NCBI RefSeq assembly: GCF_005844085.1
Contig: NZ_VCDI01000001.1
Location: forward strand, 372,001-436,000
Direction: 5' to 3'
Source: Lichenicoccus roseus
GTDB lineage: Bacteria; Pseudomonadota; Alphaproteobacteria; Acetobacterales; Acetobacteraceae
Length of the DNA: 64,000 nt
Within the stretch, counting starts at the first letter, position 1. Every line of letters begins with the position of its first letter. Below are positions 3,962-39,831 of this stretch, piece after piece. Made by a program: the position numbers and the translations under genes. A model generated the notes under the pieces. The model saw only the letters and a list, made by a program, of their open reading frames with translations, made no database searches and was not told where the DNA came from.

Positions 3962-6535
<2,574 letters not shown>

Positions 6536-6542
6536 CTATAGA

Positions 6543-7754
6543 CTATACGCGCTCTGCAGCGGGCGGGCCAGGATACTCGCTGCCGAAAGCCGAGTCGGGG
6601 CGCAGTTTCCCCTCCCCGGCACGCCAGAATCCGGCCTGCCCGCGCAGTGGCGCGAACGGCTCCGGATCGGTGCCGGTCAGCAGCGCTGGCGCCGGCAGCC
6701 GCAGCAGCGCCGCGAACAGCGCCTCCCGCCGGGTGGTGTCCAGATGCACCAGCGGCTCGTCGAGCAGCAGCAGCGGCGCCTCGCCGCGCACCTCGGCGAT
6801 CAGCGCCGCATGCGCCAGCAGGATGCCGATCAGCAGCGCCTTCTGCTGGCCGGTGCTGCCCAGGGAGGCCGGCCTGGCGGTGGCACGGTCGCTCAGCAGC
6901 AGGTCGGCACGATGGCCACCCAGGGACGCGCCCCCGGCCGCAGCATCGGATGCGCGGCGGCGCCCGAGCTGGTCGCGCAGCCAGTCCTCCACCACCAGCG
7001 CCGGATGGGCCATCAGCTGGGTGGTGATCTCGCAGGCCAGCTCGAGGGTGGCGGCGGGAAAGCCGGTCTCCGGTGCGTCCTGCGGAGCGCCGTTCAGCCG
7101 GCCCACCAGGCTACGCCGGGCAGCGCAGACCGCCACCGCGTGGCGGGCCATCGAACTCTCCTGCGCGGCCAGCCAGGCCGGATCGGTGCGCGGGTTCTGC
7201 AGCAGCCGGTTGCGGCCCTGCATGGCCTCGTCGTGTGCCGCCACTTCGCGCGCGTGCTCCGGCTCCAGCGCCAGCACCAGCCGGTCCAGGAAACGCCGCC
7301 GCCCGGAAGGTCCCTCGATGAACAGCCGGTCCATCTGCGGCGTCAGCCAGACCGCGCACAGACGCTCGGCGACCGCGGCCCGGTTGCGCGCCGGCTCGCC
7401 ATCCAGCCGGAACACCCGCCGCCCTCCCGAAGACGCACCAACGGTTGCACCACCCGCCACGCCGGCTTCGGTGGTCAGGCCGGTGCCGATCTCGAACGCC
7501 TCGCCATCCTGCGCCAGACGAGCCGCCACCGCCCAGCCCGCAGCCCCCAGACGCTGCACGTCGGCGAGCCGGGCGCCGCGCAGCCCCCGCCCCGGCACCA
7601 GCATCGACAGAGCCTCCAGCAGGTTGGTCTTGCCGCTGCCGTTGGCGCCGGTCAGCACGCTGACGCGCCCGTCGGTGCCGGCCTGATCGGGACGCCAGAC
7701 CAGCTGCTGGTAGTTCCGGTAGTCGGTGAGCGTCAGCCGCGACAGGCTGAGCAT
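6543..7754 (-). CDS. recF: DNA replication/repair protein RecF
   Basis: SMC-like ATPase that loads RecA at gaps with RecO and RecR. The 403-residue protein shows Walker A GANGSGKTN (residues 36-44), the signature region STGQQKALLIG, and Walker B LLLLDEPLVHLD. The opening SRLTLTDYRNY is typical of RecF. It lies between dnaN and gyrB in the order expected for this block and is probably co-transcribed with them (gaps of 51 and 43 bp). Confidence 0.97.
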   Translation of the reverse strand: MLSLSRLTLTDYRNYQQLVWRPDQAGTDGRVSVLTGANGSGKTNLLEALSMLVPGRGLRGARLADVQRLGAAGWAVAARLAQDGEAFEIGTGLTTEAGVAGGATVGASSGGRRVFRLDGEPARNRAAVAERLCAVWLTPQMDRLFIEGPSGRRRFLDRLVLALEPEHAREVAAHDEAMQGRNRLLQNPRTDPAWLAAQESSMARHAVAVCAARRSLVGRLNGAPQDAPETGFPAATLELACEITTQLMAHPALVVEDWLRDQLGRRRASDAAAGGASLGGHRADLLLSDRATARPASLGSTGQQKALLIGILLAHAALIAEVRGEAPLLLLDEPLVHLDTTRREALFAALLRLPAPALLTGTDPEPFAPLRGQAGFWRAGEGKLRPDSAFGSEYPGPPAAERV

Positions 7755-7805
7755 GCTGCCGCCGTCAGGATGATTGCAGGACGGCCGGACTTCGGTAGCG
7801 TCGCC

Positions 7806-8939
7806 TCAGACGCGCATCGGCATGAGCACATACAACGCCGACGGGCTGTCCACGTCGCGCACCACCGTCGGCGCCGCGCTGTCCGAGAAAGCGAACTCGA
7901 CATCCTTCTCGATCTGGTCGGTGATGTCGTTCAGGTAGCGCGCCTGGAAGCCGATCTCGAGTGGCGTGGAATCGTAGCTGACGCGGCCCTCGTCGAGTTC
8001 CTCCTTGGCGGTGCCCTGGTCCGGGCTTGCAGCCGACAGGATCAGCAGGTTGCGGTCGATCGACAGCTTGACCGGACGCGAACGCTCCTGGCTGATCGCG
8101 GCCACGCGCGCCACCGCATCGGAGAAATCCTTCTTGCCGACACGCAGGATCTTGTCGTTGTCGCGCGGAATGACGCGCTCGTATTCCGGGAACGTGCCGT
8201 CGATCAGCTTGCTGGTTAGCATCACCGAACCGACGGTGAACTGGATGCGGGTTTCCGACAGCGCCACCTCGACATCGTCCGCCGCCTCGTCGAGCAGCTT
8301 GCGCAATTCGTTGATGGTCTTGCGCGGCACGATCACACCCGGCATCCCGGCCGCCCCCGGGGGCAACTCGGTCTGCACGCGCGCCAGGCGATGCCCGTCG
8401 GTCGCCACCGCGCGCAGCATCGGCCCCGCCTCGCCGGCGGCCGCCTCGGCGACATGCAGGTAGATGCCGTTCAGATAGTAGCGGGTCTCCTCCGTGGAGA
8501 TCGCAAACCGGGTGCGGTCGATCAGTCCACGCAGCACCGGCGCCGGGATGCGGAAGGAATGCGGCAGGCTGCCGGTGGTCATGGAGGGAAAATCATCGAC
8601 GGCGAGCACGTTCAGGCTGGTCGCATAACGCCCGGCCCGCAACGCCAGCGGCGCGTCGCCACCGGAATGGTCCAGCTCCACCTCGGCACCATCCGGCAGC
8701 TTGCGGACGATCTCGTAGAGGACCGCCGCCGGCGCCGTGGTCGCGCCGTCACGCACCGCGCCGGACGCGATCTGCTCGACGACGGCGATCTCCATGTCGG
8801 TAGCGGTCAGGCTGAGCCGCCCCTCCTTCACCACGATCAGCACGTTGGCCAGGATGGGGATCGTGTTGCGCTTCTCGGCCACGCTCTGGATGTGGGCGAG
8901 CGCCTTCAGCAGCGTCGCGCGATCGGCCTTCAGCTTCAT
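7806..8939 (-). CDS. dnaN: DNA polymerase III beta sliding clamp
   Basis: Ring-shaped processivity clamp for DNA polymerase III. The 377-residue length and sequence agree with the family. The start MKLKADRATLLKALAHIQSVAEKRNTIPI lies in domain I (cited here as the segments LLKALAHIQ and RNTIPILANV), and the end has the characteristic PMRV tail that contributes to the protein-binding pocket. It follows dnaA on the minus strand after 108 bp, as in most bacteria with the dnaA-dnaN-recF-gyrB order. Confidence 0.98.
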   Translation of the reverse strand: MKLKADRATLLKALAHIQSVAEKRNTIPILANVLIVVKEGRLSLTATDMEIAVVEQIASGAVRDGATTAPAAVLYEIVRKLPDGAEVELDHSGGDAPLALRAGRYATSLNVLAVDDFPSMTTGSLPHSFRIPAPVLRGLIDRTRFAISTEETRYYLNGIYLHVAEAAAGEAGPMLRAVATDGHRLARVQTELPPGAAGMPGVIVPRKTINELRKLLDEAADDVEVALSETRIQFTVGSVMLTSKLIDGTFPEYERVIPRDNDKILRVGKKDFSDAVARVAAISQERSRPVKLSIDRNLLILSAASPDQGTAKEELDEGRVSYDSTPLEIGFQARYLNDITDQIEKDVEFAFSDSAAPTVVRDVDSPSALYVLMPMRV

Positions 8940-9047
8940 CTCAGTCGGGTCCTCATGCGCCGGAATACCGATCCGGGGCGATAGCCTAGCAGCAGCGTCG
9001 AGGCTCGCAAATGGGTGAGCCCGTCCGGGGATGCGCTGCGCGGAAAA

Positions 9048-10595
9048 TCAGCTTTCCAGCATGCGGCGGAGCAGTTCCACGTCCTCGGCGAAGGCGGTGT
9101 CGCGCTCCATCAGCTCGGCGACGCGGCTGACCGCATGCATCACCGTGGTGTGGTCGCGGTTGCCGAACTTGCGGCCGATCTCGGGCAGCGAGCGGCTGGT
9201 CAGCTGCTTGGCGAGGAACATCGCCACCTGCCGCGGCCGCGCGACCGCACGGGCGCGCCGGGCGGACGACATGTCGGTCAGGCGGATATTCCAGTGCTCG
9301 GCGACCTTGCGCTGGATCTCCTCGATGGTGACACGCCGGTCGTGCGCCTTGAGGATGTCGTGCAGGACCTCCTGGGTCGCCTCCAGCGTGACCGGGCGGC
9401 CGAACAGGTTGGCATGCGCGATCAGCCGGTTCAGCGCGCCCTCGAGCTCGCGCACGTTGGTGGTGATCTTGTGCGCCAGGAACTCCAGCACCTTGGGCGG
9501 CACCGCCACTCCGGAGGCGGCGGCCTTGGCCTCGAGGATGGAGATGCGAAGCTCGAACGTGGTGGCATGCAGATCGGCCACCATGCCGCAGCCCAGGCGG
9601 GTGCGCAGGCGATCCTCGAGGCCGGACAGGTCCGACGGCGACTTGTCGGCGCTCACCACGATCTGCTTGCCGGCATCCACCAGCGCATTGAAGGTGTGGA
9701 AGAATTCCTCCTGCGTGTTGTCCTTGCCGATCAGGAACTGCAGGTCGTCGATCATCAGCACGTCAACGGAACGCAGCTGCTCCTTGAACTCCATCGTCGA
9801 TTGCGAGCGGATCGCCGCGATGAAGCGGTACATGAATTTCTCGGCCGACATGTATGCAACCGTGGTGGTGCGCTCGCCGCGCGCCAGCTCGAGACCGATC
9901 GCATGCATCAGATGCGTCTTGCCGAGACCCACGCCGCCATACAGGAACAGCGGATTGAAGCCCGGGCTCGACGGCCGCTCGGCAACCCTCCTGGCGCAGG
10001 CATGCGCGAACTCGTTCGGCTTGCCAACCACGAAGCTGTCGAAACTGAAGCGCGGATCGAGTGGCGCGGCGAGTTCGCCCCGTGCGATGCCGGGCTCTGC
10101 CGGTGGGGCAGCATGGCCTGGCTTGACGCCACCGGCGGATGCCACCACGACAACGGGCGCGCTGCCCGCCGGCACCGCATGATCCGCTGCGGCCGGACGC
10201 TCGCGCGCCTCCTCGGCCGCCAGCTGCAGTTCCACCCGGCGGATGTGCGGGACCTCGGCATGCCAGAGCGTGCTCAGACGGTCGCCATACTGGCTTCGAA
10301 CCCAGTCACGCAGGAAGCGCGTCGGCAACAGCAGGGTGATCTCGTCTGCCTCGACCTCGCCGAGCCGGATCTGGCGCAGCCAGGTGCGGTACTCGACCTC
10401 GCCCACCTCGACCTGCATGCGCGCACGGATGCGTCCCCAATGCCGCTCGAATGGATGTCCGCTCTCGCCCCCGGTCAGGCCGGAGCCGTCGTCCGGCTTG
10501 GATCTGTCGCTGTGGTGACCGTGGCTGTCGGCGATGTCGTCAACGACGAGCTCGGAGGCTGCTCCGACCCCCTGATTGCCCTGGTCCACTCTCAC
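9048..10595 (-). CDS. dnaA: Chromosomal replication initiator DnaA
   Basis: AAA+ initiator that opens the replication origin. Visible parts are an N-terminal domain (ERHWGRIRARMQVEVGEVEY region), a variable Pro/Ala linker, the AAA+ core with Walker A GGVGLGKTHLM, Walker B VLMIDDLQF and an arginine-finger region DRLRTRLG, then domain IV with the DnaA-box-binding signature GNRDHTTVMHAV. The frame is open from an ATG at 10724, but that start lacks a ribosome binding site. A GTG at 10595 is preceded by GGGAG with 8-nt spacing and gives a more usual 515 residues, so it is preferred here. First gene of the dnaA-dnaN-recF-gyrB run. Confidence 0.95.
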   Translation of the reverse strand: MRVDQGNQGVGAASELVVDDIADSHGHHSDRSKPDDGSGLTGGESGHPFERHWGRIRARMQVEVGEVEYRTWLRQIRLGEVEADEITLLLPTRFLRDWVRSQYGDRLSTLWHAEVPHIRRVELQLAAEEARERPAAADHAVPAGSAPVVVVASAGGVKPGHAAPPAEPGIARGELAAPLDPRFSFDSFVVGKPNEFAHACARRVAERPSSPGFNPLFLYGGVGLGKTHLMHAIGLELARGERTTTVAYMSAEKFMYRFIAAIRSQSTMEFKEQLRSVDVLMIDDLQFLIGKDNTQEEFFHTFNALVDAGKQIVVSADKSPSDLSGLEDRLRTRLGCGMVADLHATTFELRISILEAKAAASGVAVPPKVLEFLAHKITTNVRELEGALNRLIAHANLFGRPVTLEATQEVLHDILKAHDRRVTIEEIQRKVAEHWNIRLTDMSSARRARAVARPRQVAMFLAKQLTSRSLPEIGRKFGNRDHTTVMHAVSRVAELMERDTAFAEDVELLRRMLES

Positions 10596-20496: not shown

Positions 20497-21216
20497 TCAG
20501 CCCGGCTCGGCGACCAGCCGGTAGCCGATACCGGGCTCGGTGGTTATCATTCGCGCGGCAGCGCCCAGCTTCTGCCGCAGGTGCCCGATATAGACGCGCA
20601 GATACTGCACGTCGTCGGCATGCGCCGGCCCCCAGACGGTGGTCAGCAGTTGCCGGTGCGTCACCAGCCGGCCGGCATGGCGCATCAGCATCGCCAGCAG
20701 CTGGAACTCGCGCGGGCTGAGCGTCACCGGTTCCCCCGCGAGCAGCAGCCGGTGCGCCGGGATGTCGAGCGCGAGGGGACCGGCTTCCAGCATGCCGTCG
20801 GCACCCGGCGGCGGCGCCAGCCCATCCCGCCGGCGCAGGGCGGTGCGTATGCGGGCCAGCAGCTCGCCGAGCGAGAACGGTTTCTCCACGTAGTCGTCGG
20901 CGCCGCCGTCGAGCGCCGCGATCTTCTCGGTCTCGCGGTCACGTGCCGACAGGATGATCACCGGCACCTGCGAGAAGGCGCGCAGCCGCCCAAGCGCCTG
21001 CTTGCCGTCCATGTCCGGCAGGCCAAGGTCGAGCAGCACCATGTCGGGCGGATGCTGCACCGCCTCGCGCAGACCCTCGGCGGCGGTGGCGGCGCTGGCG
21101 ACCGCATAGCCGGCGGCTTCCAGCGCCGGCCGCAGGAAGCGGTGGATCTGCGCCTCGTCGTCGATCACCAGCACATGGCGCCTGCCATCCGGCCGCCCGG
21201 TATCGATCCCGCTCAT
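20497..21216 (-). CDS. kdpE: Response regulator KdpE
   Basis: A 239-residue OmpR-family response regulator controlling the kdp operon. The receiver domain has the acidic pocket VLVIDDEAQ, phospho-acceptor Asp in LLDLGLPDMDG and the Lys in YVEKPFSLGE. The C-terminal winged helix contains LSPREFQLLAMLMRHAG and the HLRQKLG recognition region. Its start overlaps the kdpD stop by 4 nt, so translation is coupled. It is the last gene of the potassium operon. Confidence 0.95.
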   Translation of the reverse strand: MSGIDTGRPDGRRHVLVIDDEAQIHRFLRPALEAAGYAVASAATAAEGLREAVQHPPDMVLLDLGLPDMDGKQALGRLRAFSQVPVIILSARDRETEKIAALDGGADDYVEKPFSLGELLARIRTALRRRDGLAPPPGADGMLEAGPLALDIPAHRLLLAGEPVTLSPREFQLLAMLMRHAGRLVTHRQLLTTVWGPAHADDVQYLRVYIGHLRQKLGAAARMITTEPGIGYRLVAEPG

Positions 21217-31668: not shown

Positions 31669-34290
31669 TTAGAGCACAGGCGGCGATGCGGTGCAACCGG
31701 TGCGCCTGCGCTGCCGGCTCAGGCCAGCACCACCGCGTTGTAGAACCATGTGCAGCAGCACCGCCGGCGCAAGGCGCCCGGTACGCTTGAACAGCAGGGC
31801 GTTGACGGCGCCGAGCGTGGCGACCGGCAGCCAGGACAGCACCGGATGGTAGATGGCAAAGAAGACCGCACTGCCGGCGATCGCCCGCCATCCGCCCCAC
31901 TCCCGGTCGAGCGCCCGGAACAGCAGGCCCCTGAACAGGTATTCCTCCGCGGGCGGAGCGATCAGCACGGCAAGGACGAGATAGGCGTCGTGCAGATGCG
32001 GCACGGAGGCGATGCGGTCGCGCTCGTGCTGCAGCAGGTCGTGCACCCAGGGGATCCGCTGCAGGCCGTCGAGATAGAGCCGTGCGAGCAGGCCCAGCGC
32101 CACCCCCAGCAGGGCCGCCACCGCCAGGGCCGCAATCCATGCGCGCAAGCTGGCGGTCCCAGGATTGGCGGGCGTGCGGTTGTCAGGCGTGGAGCCGCGG
32201 GTCCAGCACCAGACTGCGCGCGCCGGCACGTCGCGGCGGGCCAGGAACCGCGCCACGCCCAGGGCAACGCCTGTCGCAGCCAGTCCGTAGCCGAGGGTCC
32301 AGGCGATGGCGGCGAAGCCGGTGCCGGCGAGCGCCAGGGCGATGCCGCCCAGCACTGCGCCGATCTCGACCAGCAGCGTGATGGCGATCATGGCGTGCAT
32401 CAGGGTCGGCGGCGTCGGCGGACGGGCCGACCAGGGATCATGGAGATAGGGCAGCCGCGCCCGGAAATTCTGCCACATCGCCGCCGCCGACAGCGTGGAG
32501 AACACGATGCCGGTGAACGCCACCTGCCATTGCTGCGTCTGCACGCCGGTGGCGAAGGTCAGGGTGCCAAGGTACACGGCATAGCGACGCCCGGCCGGAA
32601 TGCGTTCCGCCTCGCCGGACGGGCCTTGCACGGAGGCCAGGGTAACCGCCTTGCGCGCCATGCTGCGGGCAAATGGCAACCAGCCGGCGGCGACCAGCAG
32701 GATCGCGCCGCGGTCGTCCGGGAAACGCCAGGCGGCGTAGGCGAGAACCGCCGCCACCATGATCGAGGACAGCACCGTCCATAGCCGCGCCTTGGTCTTC
32801 AGAAGGCTCTCCAGGCCGCGTGGCCAGGTCAGCGCGATCCAGAGCGCCGTCCCCTCGGAGGCAAGCGAGCGCGGGCCGAGCACGGCCAGGAAGTAGGTTC
32901 CGAACAGGATGGCGGCGCAGCAGCAGGTGTTCCAGCCATCACCCGCCCCGGCCGCCAGCCCCCTGAGGTTGAACATTTGCAGCCCGGCCATGCTGCCGGG
33001 GATCAGCACCGCCTGTACCAGCGCGCCACGGTCTCGCGCGAACCACAGCAGCTCCTTGCGTATGAGCGGATCGCGGCCGAACCGGATCGGACGTGCCAGC
33101 AGGCGGGACGAGACCAGCGCATGCGGCTCCGGCGGCGCCGACAGGCCCCTGCGGGCGCTCCAGGTCGCAAATCCGAGCGAGGCTACGATCAACAGGCCGG
33201 AAAGACCGTCGCATGCCAGTACGCCGGCGCCGAAGGAGAAGCCGCCGTCGCCGCGATAGCCCAGCATCAGGCCGAGGGCCGGCCATGGCAGAGCCGCCAG
33301 TCCGCGCAGCGGGCCGGCCAGCGCGGTCGCGATCGGCACGGTGGCACCCCAGCCCACGAAGACCACGGTGAACGCCAGGGTCCCGAGCCAGCCCAGCAGC
33401 CCGGCGACGCCACCGCGTGTCCGCATCCTCAGCCGCAGCACGACGCCGATTTCCAGCGCCTTGCCGAGGCAGGCGGCGGCGACGGTAAGCGGCACGCCCA
33501 CTACCAGCCCGGCCAGCACCGCCAGCATCGGATCGTAGACCATGCCGTACAGCACCGCAGGCAGCAGGGGCGCCGCCCAGAACATCGGGTTGGCGGCGAT
33601 CGGAGCCAGCATCTCGGCGGCGAACACGGAGCCGGGTGCGACCGGATGGCTCAGCAGCCATTCCCACATCGGGTGGCGGCGCTGCTGTGCATCCAGCTCC
33701 AGCCCCTCGCCCTGCAGCACCAGCGCCAGCAGCCAGACCAGCAGGACGATTGTCGCAAGCAGCGCCGGGTAGCCGGCATAGGCGCGCGAGGATGCCAGTC
33801 CGGGCATCGCCCTGCTGCGGGCGACGAGGCGCCCGTTGAAGGCCGCGTGTCGCAGCCGTCGCTCGATGGCGGCGGCATCGCCGTGTGTCTCCCCGGCGAT
33901 GCTGCTGGCCTCGGACCGGTATGGCAGCGGAGGCGGGCCATCGACGCGGGACCAGCTGCTGGACTCGCCGAGCACCCTGAGATGGATATCGATCGCCTGG
34001 CGAAGAAAATCGTCGTCGACCACCATCCGGCCGTGCCGCTCGGCCTCGACACGCTGCCCGGCGAGCACGACGTCGCGCACCGCCAGGGCGGCGACGAGGT
34101 TGAACGCCATCATCAACGCCATGACGAACAGGATCGCGAAGCCGCCCAGGCCGCTCGATCGGCCGGATGTCGTCACCCGGGCAATCTGTCTCGCGCGTGC
34201 CCTGCGGCCCTGGCCACGCCGCCAAGCATTGGCCAGCAGCAGGCGCACGACGGCGACCGCGCCGGGCCCCGCTCGCGAGCCCGGTCTCAT
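31669..34290 (-). CDS. ABC transporter permease fused to a CPBP-family intramembrane protease domain
   Basis: An 873-residue polytopic membrane protein. The N-terminal ~600 residues are a permease with many hydrophobic segments and long polar loops, of the ABC-2-like exporter type. The last ~160 residues are a CPBP (CAAX protease/bacteriocin-processing) domain with the EEYLFRGLLFRAL motif, FFAIYHP carrying the conserved His, and NALLFKRTGRLAPAVLLHM. The ATG at 34290 overlaps the stop of the upstream ATPase gene (ATGA), so both are translated together. Permease-CPBP fusions are known in some exporters, but their substrates are mostly unknown. Confidence 0.85.
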   Translation of the reverse strand: MRPGSRAGPGAVAVVRLLLANAWRRGQGRRARARQIARVTTSGRSSGLGGFAILFVMALMMAFNLVAALAVRDVVLAGQRVEAERHGRMVVDDDFLRQAIDIHLRVLGESSSWSRVDGPPPLPYRSEASSIAGETHGDAAAIERRLRHAAFNGRLVARSRAMPGLASSRAYAGYPALLATIVLLVWLLALVLQGEGLELDAQQRRHPMWEWLLSHPVAPGSVFAAEMLAPIAANPMFWAAPLLPAVLYGMVYDPMLAVLAGLVVGVPLTVAAACLGKALEIGVVLRLRMRTRGGVAGLLGWLGTLAFTVVFVGWGATVPIATALAGPLRGLAALPWPALGLMLGYRGDGGFSFGAGVLACDGLSGLLIVASLGFATWSARRGLSAPPEPHALVSSRLLARPIRFGRDPLIRKELLWFARDRGALVQAVLIPGSMAGLQMFNLRGLAAGAGDGWNTCCCAAILFGTYFLAVLGPRSLASEGTALWIALTWPRGLESLLKTKARLWTVLSSIMVAAVLAYAAWRFPDDRGAILLVAAGWLPFARSMARKAVTLASVQGPSGEAERIPAGRRYAVYLGTLTFATGVQTQQWQVAFTGIVFSTLSAAAMWQNFRARLPYLHDPWSARPPTPPTLMHAMIAITLLVEIGAVLGGIALALAGTGFAAIAWTLGYGLAATGVALGVARFLARRDVPARAVWCWTRGSTPDNRTPANPGTASLRAWIAALAVAALLGVALGLLARLYLDGLQRIPWVHDLLQHERDRIASVPHLHDAYLVLAVLIAPPAEEYLFRGLLFRALDREWGGWRAIAGSAVFFAIYHPVLSWLPVATLGAVNALLFKRTGRLAPAVLLHMVLQRGGAGLSRQRRRTGCTASPPVL

Positions 34291-35078
34291 GCTTCCTGCG
34301 GCGGCCGCTGCGTCAGGCGCAGGAACATGTCCTCCAGGGTGGCATCGCCGTGCCCCGCCTGCAGCGCCTGCAGCGACCCGGCGGCCACCACCCGCCCCTC
34401 GTTGATGATCACCGCGTGCGAGCAAAGGCGGGCGACGTGGTCCATCAGGTGGGTCGAGAACAGGATGGTGGTGCCCGACGCGGCCTGCTCGCGGATCAAC
34501 GCATAGAACAGGTGGGTGGATTCGACGTCCAGGCCGTTGGTCGGCTCGTCGAGCACCAGCAGCCGGGGCTGGTGCAGCAGCGCCAGCAAAAGCCCGAGCT
34601 TCTTCTTGGTGCCGCGTGAATACTCCTCGGCATAGGCATCGAGCTGGTCGGCCATGCGCAGGCGCGCCACCGTCGGTGCCAGCCGCGCCATGGTGGCGGC
34701 GACGTCGAGGCCATGCATGGCTGCGCTGAGCTGCAGCAGCTCGCGTCCTGACAGGTAGGCGTAGAACACCGGCTCGTCGGGCAGGAAGCCGAGCTGGCGC
34801 ATCACGGAGACACGGTCCTCGAAGGCATCCAGCCCGGCAACCCGCACCCGGCCCGAGGTCACCTTCAGCACGCCCATCAGGAGACGGAACAGCGTGGTCT
34901 TGCCGGCGCCGTTCGGACCGAGCAGGCCGCAGACCTGCCCGGCGGGGACCGTGAACGAGATCCCGGCCAGCGCCTGCCTCGCACCGAAGCTCTTGGTGAC
35001 GTCGGCGAGCTGCACGAGCGGGGTGTCGCCGCCGGCGGGAGCCAGGTCGTCCGGCGCTGCTGCAGGTAGGTCCGTCAC
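34287..35078 (-). CDS. ABC transporter ATP-binding protein (exporter type)
   Basis: A 263-residue ATPase of the NatA/CcmA-like class. It has Walker A GPNGAGKTTLFRLLMG, the variant signature YSRGTKKKLGLLLALL (in place of LSGGQ), Walker B LLVLDEPTNGLD and the switch His in STHLMDH. The C-terminal DATLEDMFLRLT is typical of drug/polysaccharide/sodium exporters. Its stop overlaps the start of the permease-protease gene. It begins 23 bp after the sugar isomerase stop and may belong to the same operon. Confidence 0.93.
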   Translation of the reverse strand: MTDLPAAAPDDLAPAGGDTPLVQLADVTKSFGARQALAGISFTVPAGQVCGLLGPNGAGKTTLFRLLMGVLKVTSGRVRVAGLDAFEDRVSVMRQLGFLPDEPVFYAYLSGRELLQLSAAMHGLDVAATMARLAPTVARLRMADQLDAYAEEYSRGTKKKLGLLLALLHQPRLLVLDEPTNGLDVESTHLFYALIREQAASGTTILFSTHLMDHVARLCSHAVIINEGRVVAAGSLQALQAGHGDATLEDMFLRLTQRPPQEA

Positions 35079-35101: not shown

Positions 35102-35935
35102 TTACGACCGGCAAGCGCTCCGGCGGCCACCCACCGCCGCGGCGAAGGCAAGTGCGGTGGCGACGTCATCCTCGCAGGCGGCGCCGGCGGCCAGCATCTC
35201 GATGACCACCCATCCGGTGTAGCCCGCTTCGTCCAGCGCCCGCGCCACCGCCGCATGATCGAGTACCGGCGCCGCGAAACCGCCGAGCCGGGGCTCCGAC
35301 ATGTGGTAGTGCGCGAGCAACGGTCCGGCCGCCGCTATGGCTGCGACGGGATCGTCGCCGGCGAGCGCCACGCAGGCGGTGTCGAGATGCACCCTCAGGC
35401 CGGGATGGCCGACGCGGCTGACCATCCCGATCACCTCGCCGGCGCGCTCGAGAAAGTCGGCGCCGTAGACGGCGGGAACCGGTTCGAGGCCCAGCACCAC
35501 ACCGCCGGCGCCAGCCAGCTCCGCCAGTTGCCACAGCCGGTCGGATGCAAGATCGGTCGCGGCCGAGAGCGTCAGCGCGCCCCGGCTGCGATAGGCCGGC
35601 GCGCCGAACACCGCGACCGGCGCCCCGAGGCCCGTGGCGATACCAGCCAGGCGCCGCACCTGCTCCCGCATGGACGCGAATTCGGCGTCGCCCGCGAGCA
35701 ACGCCATCCCCGTGCAGCCGTAGAAGATCGCCTGCAGCGAGCTGACCGACAGCCCCTCGCCCCGGCAGGCGTCGCGAAAGCCCTGCAGCCGCGACGGGGT
35801 GATCTCGTTCCAGGGCGCAAGGCGGGTTGGCGCGACCTCGACCCCCGACGCGCCGCCGCGTGCAAGCATCGCCAGCATCCGTGCGTCCGGGACGAGCGCG
35901 GGGTCCCAGGCGAGGTTGGAGACCGCTAGGCGCAT
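35102..35935 (-). CDS. Sugar phosphate isomerase/epimerase-like TIM-barrel protein
   Basis: A 277-residue protein of the xylose-isomerase-like TIM-barrel superfamily (AP endonuclease 2 family). Visible elements are MRLAVSNLAWD at the start, GVEVAPTRLAPW, LGLEPVPAVYGADF with the metal-binding Glu, LRVHLDTACVAL with Asp, LLAHYHMSEP with His, and the C-terminal TGWVVIEML with Glu. Together these suggest a metal-dependent sugar isomerase or epimerase. The ATG at 35935 overlaps the upstream SDR gene by 10 nt. Confidence 0.85.
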   Translation of the reverse strand: MRLAVSNLAWDPALVPDARMLAMLARGGASGVEVAPTRLAPWNEITPSRLQGFRDACRGEGLSVSSLQAIFYGCTGMALLAGDAEFASMREQVRRLAGIATGLGAPVAVFGAPAYRSRGALTLSAATDLASDRLWQLAELAGAGGVVLGLEPVPAVYGADFLERAGEVIGMVSRVGHPGLRVHLDTACVALAGDDPVAAIAAAGPLLAHYHMSEPRLGGFAAPVLDHAAVARALDEAGYTGWVVIEMLAAGAACEDDVATALAFAAAVGGRRSACRS

Positions 35936-36705
35936 GCCACGAAGCGCGCGAGCGCCGCCAGCACGGCGTCCGCGTCCATGAGCACACCACCGGCGCCTCC
36001 GAAGGCGTCGTCGTGCCTGGTGCGCATGTCGTAGATCGCGGGCGTTCCCGAAACTCCGGCGCCGATCACGGCGTCGGGGAACAGCCGGCCGCACAATGTC
36101 GCCATCGCGATCGGCGCGGTTGCCAGGTTGAGCCGGGACAGGCCGAGCCGGCGTGCGCGGGCGAGATCGTCGGCCAGCCGGTCCAGCGGGTACCACTGCA
36201 ACCTCGATGCCGGGTCGATGCCGCCCAGCCGTTCCCCATGCATGAGATCATGGATGGCGTTCTTCTTCAGCCCGGGTCCGAACAGGCCCGGCAGCCGCAC
36301 GACGAGATGGTCGGCGAAGCGGTCCACGACATGGCGTTCGAGCATGAGCCGGTTGCGGCCATACGGGTGCAGACGGTCCGGCGAAGGTTCGTCATCCTCG
36401 TCGACGCCGACGGGCGTGTCGTAGACATCGACCGTCGAGACAAGGGTGAAGTGGCTGGCCTCGATGGTGTCGAGATGGCGCATCAGCCCCTCGATCCGGA
36501 CGCGATCCTCGCCTGGGTTCTGGTTCGCCCACCATTTCACCCCGGCGGCGCCGGCGCACACCACCGCGTCGAAGCGCCGGCCATCGATGTCGCCGATGCT
36601 GCTCGAATTGTAGGTCGCGTCGAAGTCGCGCCGGCGCAGCAGGTTCGAGCCGACGAAGCCGGTATGGCCGATCAGGGCGTCGCCGGTGCCATCGTCAGAC
36701 CGCAT
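35926..36705 (-). CDS. NAD-dependent epimerase/dehydratase-like SDR (YxxxR variant)
   Basis: A 259-residue extended-SDR-like protein. It has the cofactor motif LIGHTGFVGSNLL (about 11-23), then VVCAGAAGVKWWA, the catalytic Ser region LVSTVDVYDTP and the catalytic Tyr in HPYGRNRL (Tyr115). The Lys normally four residues after the Tyr is Arg here. Such proteins act on nucleotide-sugars or related substrates. The start at 36705 overlaps the 3' end of the FAD oxidoreductase gene; the 3' end overlaps the isomerase gene. Confidence 0.82.
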   Translation of the reverse strand: MRSDDGTGDALIGHTGFVGSNLLRRRDFDATYNSSSIGDIDGRRFDAVVCAGAAGVKWWANQNPGEDRVRIEGLMRHLDTIEASHFTLVSTVDVYDTPVGVDEDDEPSPDRLHPYGRNRLMLERHVVDRFADHLVVRLPGLFGPGLKKNAIHDLMHGERLGGIDPASRLQWYPLDRLADDLARARRLGLSRLNLATAPIAMATLCGRLFPDAVIGAGVSGTPAIYDMRTRHDDAFGGAGGVLMDADAVLAALARFVACA

Positions 36706-37798
36706 GCGTGACCAGGCCGCGATCGAGGATGTCCTGTCGCAGCGGGCTCTGCAACGGCGCCACCGCGGGCGATTGCGACGCCTCCAGGAACGAGAGGATG
36801 CGTTCCATCGCAAAGAAGATGGTGTCTATCTTGCCGGACATGACATGGAACACGCGCCCGCGCCGGATCACCGAGCAGGACCGGTCGTCGAAACTGCCGA
36901 CCGGCTTTGTCTTGATCGAGAGCTGCGGCCCGACGAACCGGAAACTCTCCTCGAAGTCCGGCAGGTAGCGTGCGATCTGCGCCTCCATCGCGCACCGCCG
37001 CGCGTCGACGGTCTCCGCCGTGACACTGTCGCGCAGATGCCGCGCGCGCGCCGGATCGGTGGCGTGCCCGAGCGGCGTGTGCGGCACCGAGGAGAGCGTG
37101 TAGATGCTCGGATCCTCGGTCGGATAGACCGAGCAGAGCGGGCCGTCGACCAGGGTCACCGCCGGAAACGGCCGGTCGGTCTCGTAGTACAGCAGCATGG
37201 TCGGCTCGTAGAAGAAGCCGGGCGGCAGCCCGTCCTGCTGGCCCCAGCTTGCATTCACCAGCAGGTCGAACGGCTGGCCCTCGACACGCACGCAGCCCGG
37301 CTCGTGCTCGATGCTGCCGACATGATGGCCGAGCACCAGGCTGCCTGCGAGCTGTGCGATGAAGTAGCGCCGCGCCTGCTCGATCAGCAGCACCCGTTCG
37401 CCGGTGCGGATCAGTCCCGCCACCCCCGCGATCGGCACGCTGCAGCCGCCGACCTCGCGATACTCGATTCCGGACGACGTCATGATCAGCCGGTAGGTCG
37501 CGAAATCGATCAGGCTCTCCAGGCTCGGCACCGCATAGATGTTCTCCGTCACCTCGCGGCTGAGATACGGGTAGCGCTCCATGAATCGCATGAAGCCGTC
37601 GCGCGACTGCACCCGCGTCTGGTGATGCCGCGGATAATGAAAGCCGAGATGCAGGCGGAACTGGTTGTTGCCGGACGCCTCGTGCAGCGGCCGCGCATGC
37701 TGCTCGAACACGGTAACGTCGAACCCGAGCAGCTTGAGCGACGTGCCGATATGACAGCCGTACCAGCCCGCGCCGATGATCGCGATACGCGAAACCAT
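36695..37798 (-). CDS. FAD-dependent oxidoreductase (DAO-like)
   Basis: A 367-residue flavoprotein. It opens with the Rossmann dinucleotide motif IAIIGAGWYGCHIG and a VFEQHARPL stretch that contacts the ribose, followed by the characteristic string NNQFRLHLGFHYPRHH. The C-terminal part has VFHVMSGKIDTIF, and the overall shape resembles amino-acid/amino-sugar oxidases. The ATG at 37798 lies 35 nt after the stop of the 665-residue gene. It belongs to a tight group with the SDR and isomerase. Substrate unknown. Confidence 0.85.
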   Translation of the reverse strand: MVSRIAIIGAGWYGCHIGTSLKLLGFDVTVFEQHARPLHEASGNNQFRLHLGFHYPRHHQTRVQSRDGFMRFMERYPYLSREVTENIYAVPSLESLIDFATYRLIMTSSGIEYREVGGCSVPIAGVAGLIRTGERVLLIEQARRYFIAQLAGSLVLGHHVGSIEHEPGCVRVEGQPFDLLVNASWGQQDGLPPGFFYEPTMLLYYETDRPFPAVTLVDGPLCSVYPTEDPSIYTLSSVPHTPLGHATDPARARHLRDSVTAETVDARRCAMEAQIARYLPDFEESFRFVGPQLSIKTKPVGSFDDRSCSVIRRGRVFHVMSGKIDTIFFAMERILSFLEASQSPAVAPLQSPLRQDILDRGLVTHAV

Positions 37799-37833
37799 GG
37801 AACGCTTGCACCCGGCATTGCCTGGACGCGAAG

Positions 37834-39831
37834 CTAGCTGGTTACGCGGCCGGACGCATTGTTTGTCGTGTTCATCAAGGCTTCGACGAGAACCCCGAAC
37901 TGCGCGAGTACCCTCGGGTGATCCACACGGAAGTTGGCGAAATGCGGATCGTTCTCTGCCGAGGACACCGCCACCAGCCGCGGCGCCCCGGCATCGTCCT
38001 CGACGGCGTCTGGATCGATGAACAGCAGCCTGCTCGGACGCTCGATGGTGCGCGGCGCGTCGTAGATGTGCAGGTCGTCGCGCCCGAGCAGGTTGGCCCG
38101 GCTGGTCAACACCAGCCCCGGCTTGTTGCAGGCCCAGCGATACTTGGCGAGGCTGGCGCCCCAGATCGACAGGAAGCCATCGCACAGCTGCGTCCAGGCA
38201 AGGCTGTGCTGCAGCGTCGCCCCCAGCGTGTCGACGATGGCGATATCGAGGCCGGCGGCGGCTTCGCGCAGCCCTGCCGCGATGCCGCGCTCGACCAGCA
38301 GCGGCGGCGTTGCGGCGAGCCACTCGCCATGGCTCTGGATGGTGCCGGCGGCGCTGTTCGCATCCCAGCTGTTGTGACCGTCGATCACCACCGTCGCCCC
38401 CGGCCAGCGCTGCGCGATCATGGCGATGGCCTCGGCCATGAAGTCGCCGAGATCCACCAGCGTGCGGTTCTCCACCCGCAGCCCGAGCACGATCACCGGT
38501 GCGCCCCGGCGGCGGCTTTCGGCGGCCATCGCGCGGGCAGCGGGATAGCCGGCATCGTTGCGGGCGAGGCGCTGCAGCCTCCGGCGCAGCTTCTCCGAGA
38601 CACACTCGCCGGTCAGCCGTACCGCGCAGACGCCCTCGCGGTAGAGATAGGGCCGCACCTCGCGCCCGTGTGTGAAATCGCGCCGGACATGGTGGCGCAG
38701 TTCGGGAAACACCCGGTCGGTGGCGCCCCAGAGTTCGATCGCCCGGCACGGTCCGGGCACGATCCACTCCGGCAGCAACGGCCCGGGATGGCGGTCGAGC
38801 AGATGCTCGATCCCGGACAGCTCGTTCCAGAGCTGGTGGCCGAGATGCGTACCGGGCGTGCCGCGCAGCACGCTGGCGACGCGCTGTGCGCCGCGGGCGA
38901 GATACGGCACCAGATCCGCCGCCTCGTTCGCCGCATGGACCAGCAGAAGCTGCTGCACGCCGGGCGCGAAATAGGTCCCCAGCAGGTGTCTCGTCCAGGC
39001 ATCCGGCACCACCAGCAGGTCGAGCGCCGGCAGATAGACCGCGATAGCCCGGAAACGATGGTCCGAGGCAACGACGTAGAAGGCGAGGCCGGCGGAGATG
39101 TCGGCATAGCGGTAGGCGATGCGAAAATCGTCCAGGTAGAGGCTGCCCTGGCAGCGCAACGGTCGTCCGTCGATCGGGCTGGGATACCGCAGCATGCCAT
39201 CCGTGGTCGCAGCCAGGACGCGATCCTCGAACGGCACCGACAGCCCGGCCTCGAGATGGGCGCGCGAGAGCGGCTCCCCGGCGGGAGGTGCGGCTTCATC
39301 CGGCCACATCGTCTCCGCCATGTCGGCTACCGACACGATCCCGGGGGCGAGCAGCGCGTCCGCCGCCGCCAGGTCGACGAGCTGCCGCCGCAGCGCCTGG
39401 TTGATCGAGGCGAAGGCCTGCGCCTCGCGCGACAGCAGCGGGATCGCCAGCATCAGCACGTCGCGCGCGATCCGCCGCAGCACCGGCACGACCGCCTCGC
39501 TCAGCGCATCCACCTGATCGGCGTCGAGATCCTCGATGCAGTCGCCGAGCCTGCGCAAACGCGCGTCGAGCAGCCAGGCAACCCGCAAGCCGTCGAGATT
39601 ACGGAACTCGAGGACCAGGAAAGGTGGCAGGCCCGCGTAGAGCAGGCTCGGTGTCCAGCCCTGGACGAACCGTTCGAACTGCAATCCCGCCCCGTCCAGC
39701 AGCGGATGCAAGCCGCCGTCGGAAGCACGCAGATACTGACGGCCATCCTGCTCGACGACCGGATCCGCCAGCAGGAGCGGAAATGCCATGCCCATCGCCG
39801 ACACAAGCGGCGCGGCGCGGTGAAGAGTCAA
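37834..39831 (-). CDS. Unrecognised 665-residue protein, possible glycosyltransferase
   Basis: I do not recognise this family. The 665-residue chain is soluble-looking, with no signal peptide and no long transmembrane helix. The N-terminal ~350 residues are Leu/Ala/Asp-rich. The middle holds the string GTHLGHQLWNELSGIEHLL, reminiscent of conserved His/Asn motifs in some glycosyltransferases. The C-terminal ~250 residues (VIVLGLRVENRTLVDLGDF, VVIDGHNSW, LSIWGASLAKYRWACNKPG) look like a GT-B-type domain with a C-terminal donor-binding fold. It heads the FAD oxidoreductase-SDR-isomerase group, which supports a sugar-linked role; this is inference. Confidence 0.6.
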   Translation of the reverse strand: MTLHRAAPLVSAMGMAFPLLLADPVVEQDGRQYLRASDGGLHPLLDGAGLQFERFVQGWTPSLLYAGLPPFLVLEFRNLDGLRVAWLLDARLRRLGDCIEDLDADQVDALSEAVVPVLRRIARDVLMLAIPLLSREAQAFASINQALRRQLVDLAAADALLAPGIVSVADMAETMWPDEAAPPAGEPLSRAHLEAGLSVPFEDRVLAATTDGMLRYPSPIDGRPLRCQGSLYLDDFRIAYRYADISAGLAFYVVASDHRFRAIAVYLPALDLLVVPDAWTRHLLGTYFAPGVQQLLLVHAANEAADLVPYLARGAQRVASVLRGTPGTHLGHQLWNELSGIEHLLDRHPGPLLPEWIVPGPCRAIELWGATDRVFPELRHHVRRDFTHGREVRPYLYREGVCAVRLTGECVSEKLRRRLQRLARNDAGYPAARAMAAESRRRGAPVIVLGLRVENRTLVDLGDFMAEAIAMIAQRWPGATVVIDGHNSWDANSAAGTIQSHGEWLAATPPLLVERGIAAGLREAAAGLDIAIVDTLGATLQHSLAWTQLCDGFLSIWGASLAKYRWACNKPGLVLTSRANLLGRDDLHIYDAPRTIERPSRLLFIDPDAVEDDAGAPRLVAVSSAENDPHFANFRVDHPRVLAQFGVLVEALMNTTNNASGRVTS

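Follow-up and report, generated by a model that had tools for sequence, protein, structure and literature searches.

Which compounds are handled by an ABC-type permease whose chain continues into a CPBP intramembrane protease domain, and does this domain still cut them? The question is raised by a locus of Lichenicoccus roseus (Alphaproteobacteria, Acetobacteraceae) lying in a stretch of 64,000 nucleotides (contig NZ_VCDI01000001.1, positions 372,001 to 436,000), which is called the window below. A frame of 873 codons on the (-) strand opens here with ATG at 34290 and closes with the stop at 31669. Its product consists of about 620 residues of permease followed by an Rce1-like CPBP domain, in which the motifs EEYLFRG (residues 782-788) and FFAIYHP (residues 810-816) are found. 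The CPBP family PF02517 matches chain residues 770-849 (E 6.3e-17; 62.1 bits versus a gathering score of 22.4), and no other Pfam family matches the chain at E <= 1. This chain is also the only PF02517 match in the L. roseus genome. An ABC ATPase frame (35078-34287, (-) strand) overlaps the fusion frame by 4 bp (ATGA). The features of the locus are collected in Table 1.

Table 1. Features of the ATPase and fusion genes; positions refer to the window, residues to the 873-residue chain.
Feature	Position	Strand	Basis
ABC ATPase, 263 aa, GTG start	34287..35078	(-)	Translation; PF00005, E 2.9e-25
ATPase motifs: Walker A GPNGAGKT, signature YSRGTKKK, Walker B LLVLDEP, H-loop STH			Motif reading
Permease-CPBP chain, 873 residues, ATGA overlap with the ATPase	31669..34290	(-)	18 other intact homologues
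Predicted permease module 1, residues 11-384	33139..34260	(-)	AlphaFold2 model and structural matches
Non-membrane insert, residues 86-172, between the first two long helices of module 1	33775..34035	(-)	Alignment, hydropathy, model helices
Predicted permease module 2, residues 408-616, starting with the RKE..RDR..LIP stretch	32443..33069	(-)	NatB-type similarity and structural matches
CPBP (Rce1-like) domain, residues 630-849 in the relatives' frame	31744..32403	(-)	PF02517; structural match to 4cad_L (MmRce1) over model residues 632-861
CPBP motif 1 EExxxR, E782 E783 R787	31930..31947	(-)	Invariant in 19/19 aligned and 23/23 distinct intact fusions
CPBP motif 2 FxxxH, H815	31846..31860	(-)	His in 19/19 aligned; 21/23 with L092 and three distant fusions
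CPBP motif 4 HxxxN, H847 kept, N851 changed to Q by frameshift	31738..31752	(-)	N851 in 18/19 aligned, the window being the sole exception
Frameshifted tail, residues 850-873 and stop	31669..31743	(-)	Relatives' frame stops at 31721-31719

Upstream, an AP_endonuc_2-type isomerase gene lies 23 bp before the ATPase gene. It belongs to a run of same-strand frames (35102-39831, (-) strand), including an isomerase-like TIM barrel and an epimerase, that may share one transcript with the ATPase; in the neighbour comparison these frames were not common to the relatives' loci. Genes for ribosomal proteins S6 and L9 are found downstream of the fusion, and the gene between them presumably encodes S18. 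A terminator scan gave 2 sites versus a shuffle mean of 1.7, that is, no excess. GC content and third-position GC of the ATPase and fusion genes match those of the surrounding genes, so base composition in the window gives no sign of a recent acquisition.

Relatives were collected by a peptide-pattern scan of an 84,980-species collection, which gave 18 loci; two more came from a whole genome of the same family (G010) and from a Sphingomonas plasmid (L024). Two of these 20 relatives are broken (L006 and L019) and were excluded, and the other 18 together with the window chain form a 19-row alignment (A1). The 18 intact homologues are 39-50% identical to the window chain and align over both the permease and the CPBP part, which excludes a fusion by chance. 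PF02517 matches all 19 proteins at E <= 0.1, and EExxxR, FxxxH and the last His are kept in all 18 relatives. Their hosts belong to Acidobacteriota, Alphaproteobacteria, Kiritimatiellota, Bdellovibrionota, and Myxococcota. An earlier note, made from the letters of the DNA, had described one 873-residue chain joining a permease to a CPBP domain, with a translationally coupled ATPase. The first statement is upheld by the frame, the motifs, the PF02517 match and the 18 intact homologues, and the second by the ATGA overlap of 35078-34287 with 34290-31669; the homologous fusions that the note had proposed to look for are these 18, each with an adjoining ATPase.

The permease-CPBP family is rare, sparse, and scattered across bacteria. 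Of 72,556 plasmid records, the Sphingomonas plasmid alone has a match. Among 59 genomes near that of L. roseus, at least one has a full-length match (G010) and at least one a match through the CPBP part only (G042). Among 398 genomes of Pseudomonadota, L. roseus alone was found, in agreement with a permease profile search, and among 247 genomes of the phylum of G060 the centre genome alone had a match to the main family; since a limited number of candidates per genome is scored in such whole-genome searches, these genome counts are lower bounds. In the tree, four of the five alphaproteobacterial copies group together across a supported branch. The Sphingomonas plasmid copy stands apart from them, among Acidobacteriota, with its fork drawn open, and a single clade of all five was recovered in 14% of 200 bootstrap trees.

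The permease part does not reveal its class through Pfam: none of the 19 members matches a Pfam permease family, ABC2_membrane included, at E <= 0.1. By comparison, 12 of 12 NF041647/NatB-type proteins match the ABC2_membrane profiles. At the sequence level, similarity to NatB-type permeases is confined to 33-34 residues in the RKE..RDR..LIP stretch with which module 2 opens (two profile comparisons, E 8e-4 and 2e-4, probability 25% and 47%). No internal duplication between modules 1 and 2 was detected by profile comparison at the sequence level. A search for solved structures by sequence gave no match with the single protein, and one match at chance level (E 0.87) with the alignment.

Models were therefore of interest for both parts of the chain. 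The whole-chain AlphaFold2 model (17 rows) has a mean pLDDT of 76.6 and a pTM of 0.67; modelled alone, residues 1-625 reach 75.9 and 0.70, with similar helices. The main helices of module 1 cover residues 11-41, 48-85, 173-192, 254-286, 289-324, and 353-384, with shorter ones between 207 and 251. In one natural copy (L014, 4156-6537) most of the insert of about 80 residues in module 1 is missing. In the whole-chain model, residues 9-616 match a mycobacterial efflux pump (8k1m; Z 10.8, rmsd 6.9, 398 aligned), residues 632-861 match MmRce1 (4cad; Z 10.0, rmsd 5.0, 187 aligned), and MATE transporters reach Z <=9.5 over 139-163 residues. For the permease-alone model MATE transporters rank at the top (Z up to 10.6, 138-209 aligned), followed by NosY (Z 9.8, 199 aligned) and then by ABCG, ABCA7, Wzm, and the mycobacterial pump (Z 7.7-8.4, 323-417 aligned). 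Foldseek gave no match at E <= 0.001 for either model, the permease E values being above 0.05; for both models, a Z below about 13 in helical proteins may reflect a common arrangement only.

A secondary transporter of the MATE type was considered and rejected, because the MATE matches span only 138-209 residues, an ATPase always adjoins, and the two folds are treated as related in ECOD. There the MATE and ABC2 folds are classed as distant homologues (PMC6588880), so a mixed list of matches is expected of an ABC-2 fold. The permease is likely a tandem two-module ABC-2 (type V) exporter, an assignment based on the ATPase partner, one short sequence stretch and the predicted structure. The 'ABC-2-like permease' of the earlier note is thus likely by the same three lines, although Pfam recognizes it in 0/19 members.

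An ABC ATPase adjoins all 23 intact fusions examined, and Walker A, signature, Walker B, and H-loop were all found in 22 of these ATPases; in L005 the Walker A motif is cut by the contig end. Identities of ATPase and permease correlate across the 19 aligned loci (r 0.77 for 171 pairs, which are not independent of each other). The ATPase is the sole neighbour common to the family across these loci. In the window all frames of at least 60 aa were compared, and no further common neighbour was found except between the two Pontiellaceae loci (L012 and L016), which have several neighbours in common, for a second ABC ATPase in L017, and for weak matches of 23-32% identity (among L006, L019, and L017, and between L014 and window 20497-21216). 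Ten neighbours of relatives were chosen for annotation. Three have no family, and the others are mutually unrelated: a relaxase, a histidine kinase, a purine permease, a formyl transferase, a beta-lactamase-fold protein, an A-macroglobulin fragment, and an Ig-like/beta-helix protein. A histidine kinase is also found beside L060. Relaxase genes occur near two copies, at a distance of 0.6 kb in L009 (1855-4605) and of 3.6 kb in L024 (1368-3581), the Sphingomonas plasmid. No biosynthetic neighbour common to the compared loci was found among the selected neighbours that were annotated. In Bradyrhizobium sp. SSBR45G (L013), a 237-aa ORF without a Pfam family (8355-9068, (+) strand) overlaps the fusion gene by 4 bp.

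Small ORFs of 25-150 aa were compared in flanks of up to 4 kb, and common ones occur only within two pairs of near relatives; for 7 of the 19 loci this comparison covers less than 1 kb on one or both sides, and it would have picked up a conserved precursor only. The earlier note had likewise reported no precursor peptide gene nearby, and for ORFs of 25-150 aa within these flanks its statement stands. Its proposed cargo, a peptide or release factor, was not borne out, as neither small ORFs nor neighbours other than the ATPase are common to the loci, barring near relatives and weak matches.

More distant fusions were found with profiles of the permease. A search of 247 genomes gave one genome (G131) besides the centre genome, and a profile including it led to long fused frames in G119, G724, and G744. 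The same profile found again G131, the members in G061, G064, and G067, and G928, with the same protein as L014; the remaining matches concern the CPBP part only. The fusions of G131, G119, and G724 (L060, L091, and L090, respectively) are 18-20% identical to the window chain, their alignment with the main clade crosses the boundary between permease and CPBP parts, and an ATPase adjoins each. L060 and L091 were reached through the phylum of G060. All CPBP motifs are kept in L090. In L091 (3243-5624, (+) strand) the motif-2 His is replaced by Gln, and L060 (4822-7239, (-) strand) lacks the motif-2 His and has Asn in place of the motif-4 His. In total, 23 distinct intact fusions were counted, namely the 19 aligned ones, L092, L090, L091, and L060; L093, equal to L014, and the broken L006 and L019 were dropped. 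The EE pair and the Arg are present in all 23, the motif-2 His in 21, the motif-4 His in 22, and the motif-4 Asn in 22, the window being its sole loss. Six long CPBP-bearing frames (L094-L099) match through the CPBP part alone and were excluded from the counts. No adjoining ATPase was found for them by the motif test; five of the six have EExxxR near the C-terminus, and they are possibly other CPBP fusions.

The window copy itself departs from its relatives at the end of the chain. In the 18 other rows of the alignment, the chain ends a few residues past HMVYNAVVL or a close variant. In the window H847-M848-V849 is followed by LQRGGAGLSRQRRRTGCTASPPVL, 24 residues unrelated to that ending. The relatives' frame is still present in the window DNA, where a three-frame view gives FYNAVVLA and a stop at 31721-31719, and the window frame continues to 31669. 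Thus E782, E783, R787, H815, and H847 are kept and N851 is lost, all six being present in the 18 other close homologues. The motif-4 Asn corresponds to N227 of MrtX as described in PMC11980579 and to N231 of MmRce1 as described in PMC10811503; in DidK, the latter source reports, Ala at the matching N278 (printed as H278 in its sentence) cost more than half of the activity, not all of it. As the shift falls within the last catalytic motif, the CPBP part of the window copy appears not to be intact. The window deviates at 7 of the 134 columns that do not vary among the other rows, and 3 of these 7 belong to the shifted tail (the corresponding counts of the other rows are 0-10). With so few changes at invariant columns outside the tail, the gene seems otherwise maintained, and either a recent event or an error would explain the shift. 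With its last catalytic motif broken, the window copy probably exports with reduced or no hydrolysis, is decaying, or carries a sequencing error. The CPBP domain of the earlier note is therefore present with both of its motifs, EEYLFRG and FFAIYHP, but is not intact, its last 24 residues being frameshifted and N851 lost. The conservation of its catalytic residues, to which that note had tied its proposal, extends to Glu, Arg, and His in the 18 close homologues and does not extend to N851 of the window or to the motif-2 His of two of the three distant fusions.

For the function of the pair, our tentative choice, possible though far from assured, is a mobile efflux or detoxification cassette that would export and cleave a peptidic or lipidated compound. 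An ATPase homodimer would drive a single-chain permease of two ABC-2-type modules, to which an Rce1-like intramembrane glutamic hydrolase, complete in its modelled fold, is covalently joined. The pump may extract from the inner membrane a compound of peptidic or lipidated nature that partitions into membranes, and an amide or ester bond of this compound may be hydrolysed by the CPBP domain, either ahead of export or in the course of it. Efflux, detoxification, or self-protection would probably be the main use, and not maturation of a peptide of the cell itself, since the pair seems to travel between genomes alone, without cargo genes. An exporter and an intramembrane hydrolase in one chain argue for one substrate seen by both. 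The coupled pair, the scarcity of anything else common around it, the scattered spread and the relaxase genes near two copies are consistent with such a cassette; against it, a housekeeping lipid exporter would also appear as a lone pair. CPBP enzymes acting on nonribosomal peptides are described for DidK, which cleaves a didemnin prodrug (PMC10811503), and for MlrA, which opens cyclic microcystin (PMC9505733). A role as bacteriocin immunity genes is likewise ascribed to CPBP (CAAX) proteases (PMC4860687), and ABC transporters are described as able to confer bacteriocin cross-resistance (PMC8306556). A sharper version, which we hold to be rather unlikely in its full detail, is an ATP-driven extract-and-cleave machine: a tandem ABC exporter and a hydrolase that would inactivate a membrane-seeking peptide or lipopeptide during its expulsion, forming a mobile two-gene immunity or detoxification cassette that would spread among unrelated bacteria, with the hydrolase dulled and the export left in some lineages.

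Maturation remains the obvious competitor, in that the CPBP domain could cleave a lipidated peptide, lipopeptide prodrug or lipoprotein of the same cell during export, similarly to DidK but fused to the transporter. The conservation of the CPBP residues in 18 of 18 other close homologues speaks for it, as does DidK, described as a prodrug-cleaving enzyme whose gene cluster encodes transporters as well (PMC10811503). It is nevertheless doubtful given that common small ORFs are confined to two near-relative pairs, that the loci have no biosynthetic neighbour in common, that the distribution is scattered, and that the window copy lacks N851. The same loss bears on another reading, in which the CPBP part would be a structural or regulatory module of the permease and not an active hydrolase, comparable to the role proposed for LnsB and for APH-1 and to the one inferred for SpdC. 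CPBP members without catalytic residues exist and a noncatalytic role has been suggested for them (PMC7387801). Two distant fusions, L091 and L060, have lost the motif-2 His, and L060 the motif-4 His as well, with fusion and ATPase retained; together with the window copy they add weight to a noncatalytic module and suggest that hydrolysis is not needed in every fusion. We still regard such a module as unlikely, because EE and Arg in 23/23, the motif-2 His in 21/23, and the motif-4 His and Asn in 22/23 each stand against it, and such retention of known catalytic residues favours catalysis in the main clade. Quite improbable, finally, is that the window copy is merely a decaying gene or a 3'-end sequencing error and says little on function. 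The frameshift does strike a motif kept by all 18 other aligned copies, and other broken copies exist, namely L019 of Edaphobacter modestus, with internal stops, and L006, without the N-terminus and without an adjoining ATPase; yet only 4 of the 134 invariant columns are changed besides the tail, which points to constraint on the remainder. The broken copy of L019, with an open 3' part, lies at 5995-7170, and the copy in L006 at 5612-7864.

That pump and intramembrane hydrolase are covalently joined hints directly at an action of some CPBP enzymes on molecules that are exported. A testable expectation follows, namely that the substrate of the enzyme should be the compound which the pump exports. 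The loss of catalytic residues in distant fusions is a natural test of catalysis versus scaffolding. In full-text searches of open-access papers, no paper on the function or substrate of an ABC permease-CPBP fusion was found.

Single chains in which an ABC permease is followed C-terminally by a CPBP domain are, as such, already a named family, NF041647, and judged by profile matches the present fusion differs in its permease. One member of that family (L045) likewise adjoins an ABC ATPase frame. Its permease matches ABC2_membrane_2 and _3, unlike that of the window. Against the NF041647 profile the window chain scores 51.1 bits (cut-off 435), and only profile positions 492-625, the CPBP part, are matched; for intact fusions from whole genomes, 10 of 10 matches start at profile position 420 or later and 0 of 10 pass the cut-off. 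Membership was rejected on the unmatched permease part, and the failed cut-off and the different permease suggest that the window fusion is a variant apart from NF041647. Of 12 strong NF041647 matches from the phylum of G061, 11 (L046-L056) end at profile position 401-436. Pfam detects no CPBP domain in these 11 proteins, which are NatB-type permeases; of the 12, L045 alone passes the cut-off and has one.

Other known systems resemble one part of the chain each. The mycobacterial efflux pump (PDB 8k1m-8k1p), which we take to be Rv1217c-Rv1218c, gives the longest structural match of the window permease. Its chains of 509-530 residues leave no room for a CPBP domain, however, and identity in the aligned part is 9-11%. 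MmRce1 (PDB 4cad) shares the fold over window residues 632-861, and the spacing from E140 to H173 (numbering as in PMC10811503), 33 residues, equals that from E782 to H815 in the window; it differs in being a stand-alone prenyl-protein protease, and the window lacks the equivalent of its N231. DidK of Tistrella is likewise described as a CPBP hydrolase tied to peptide export, but as an 8-TM enzyme that stands alone, has esterase activity and belongs to a biosynthetic cluster (PMC10811503). The myxosortase MrtX is described as a prokaryotic CPBP protease with E146, E147, H223, and N227, in contrast a stand-alone protein of 239 aa acting on MYXO-CTERM proteins (PMC11980579).
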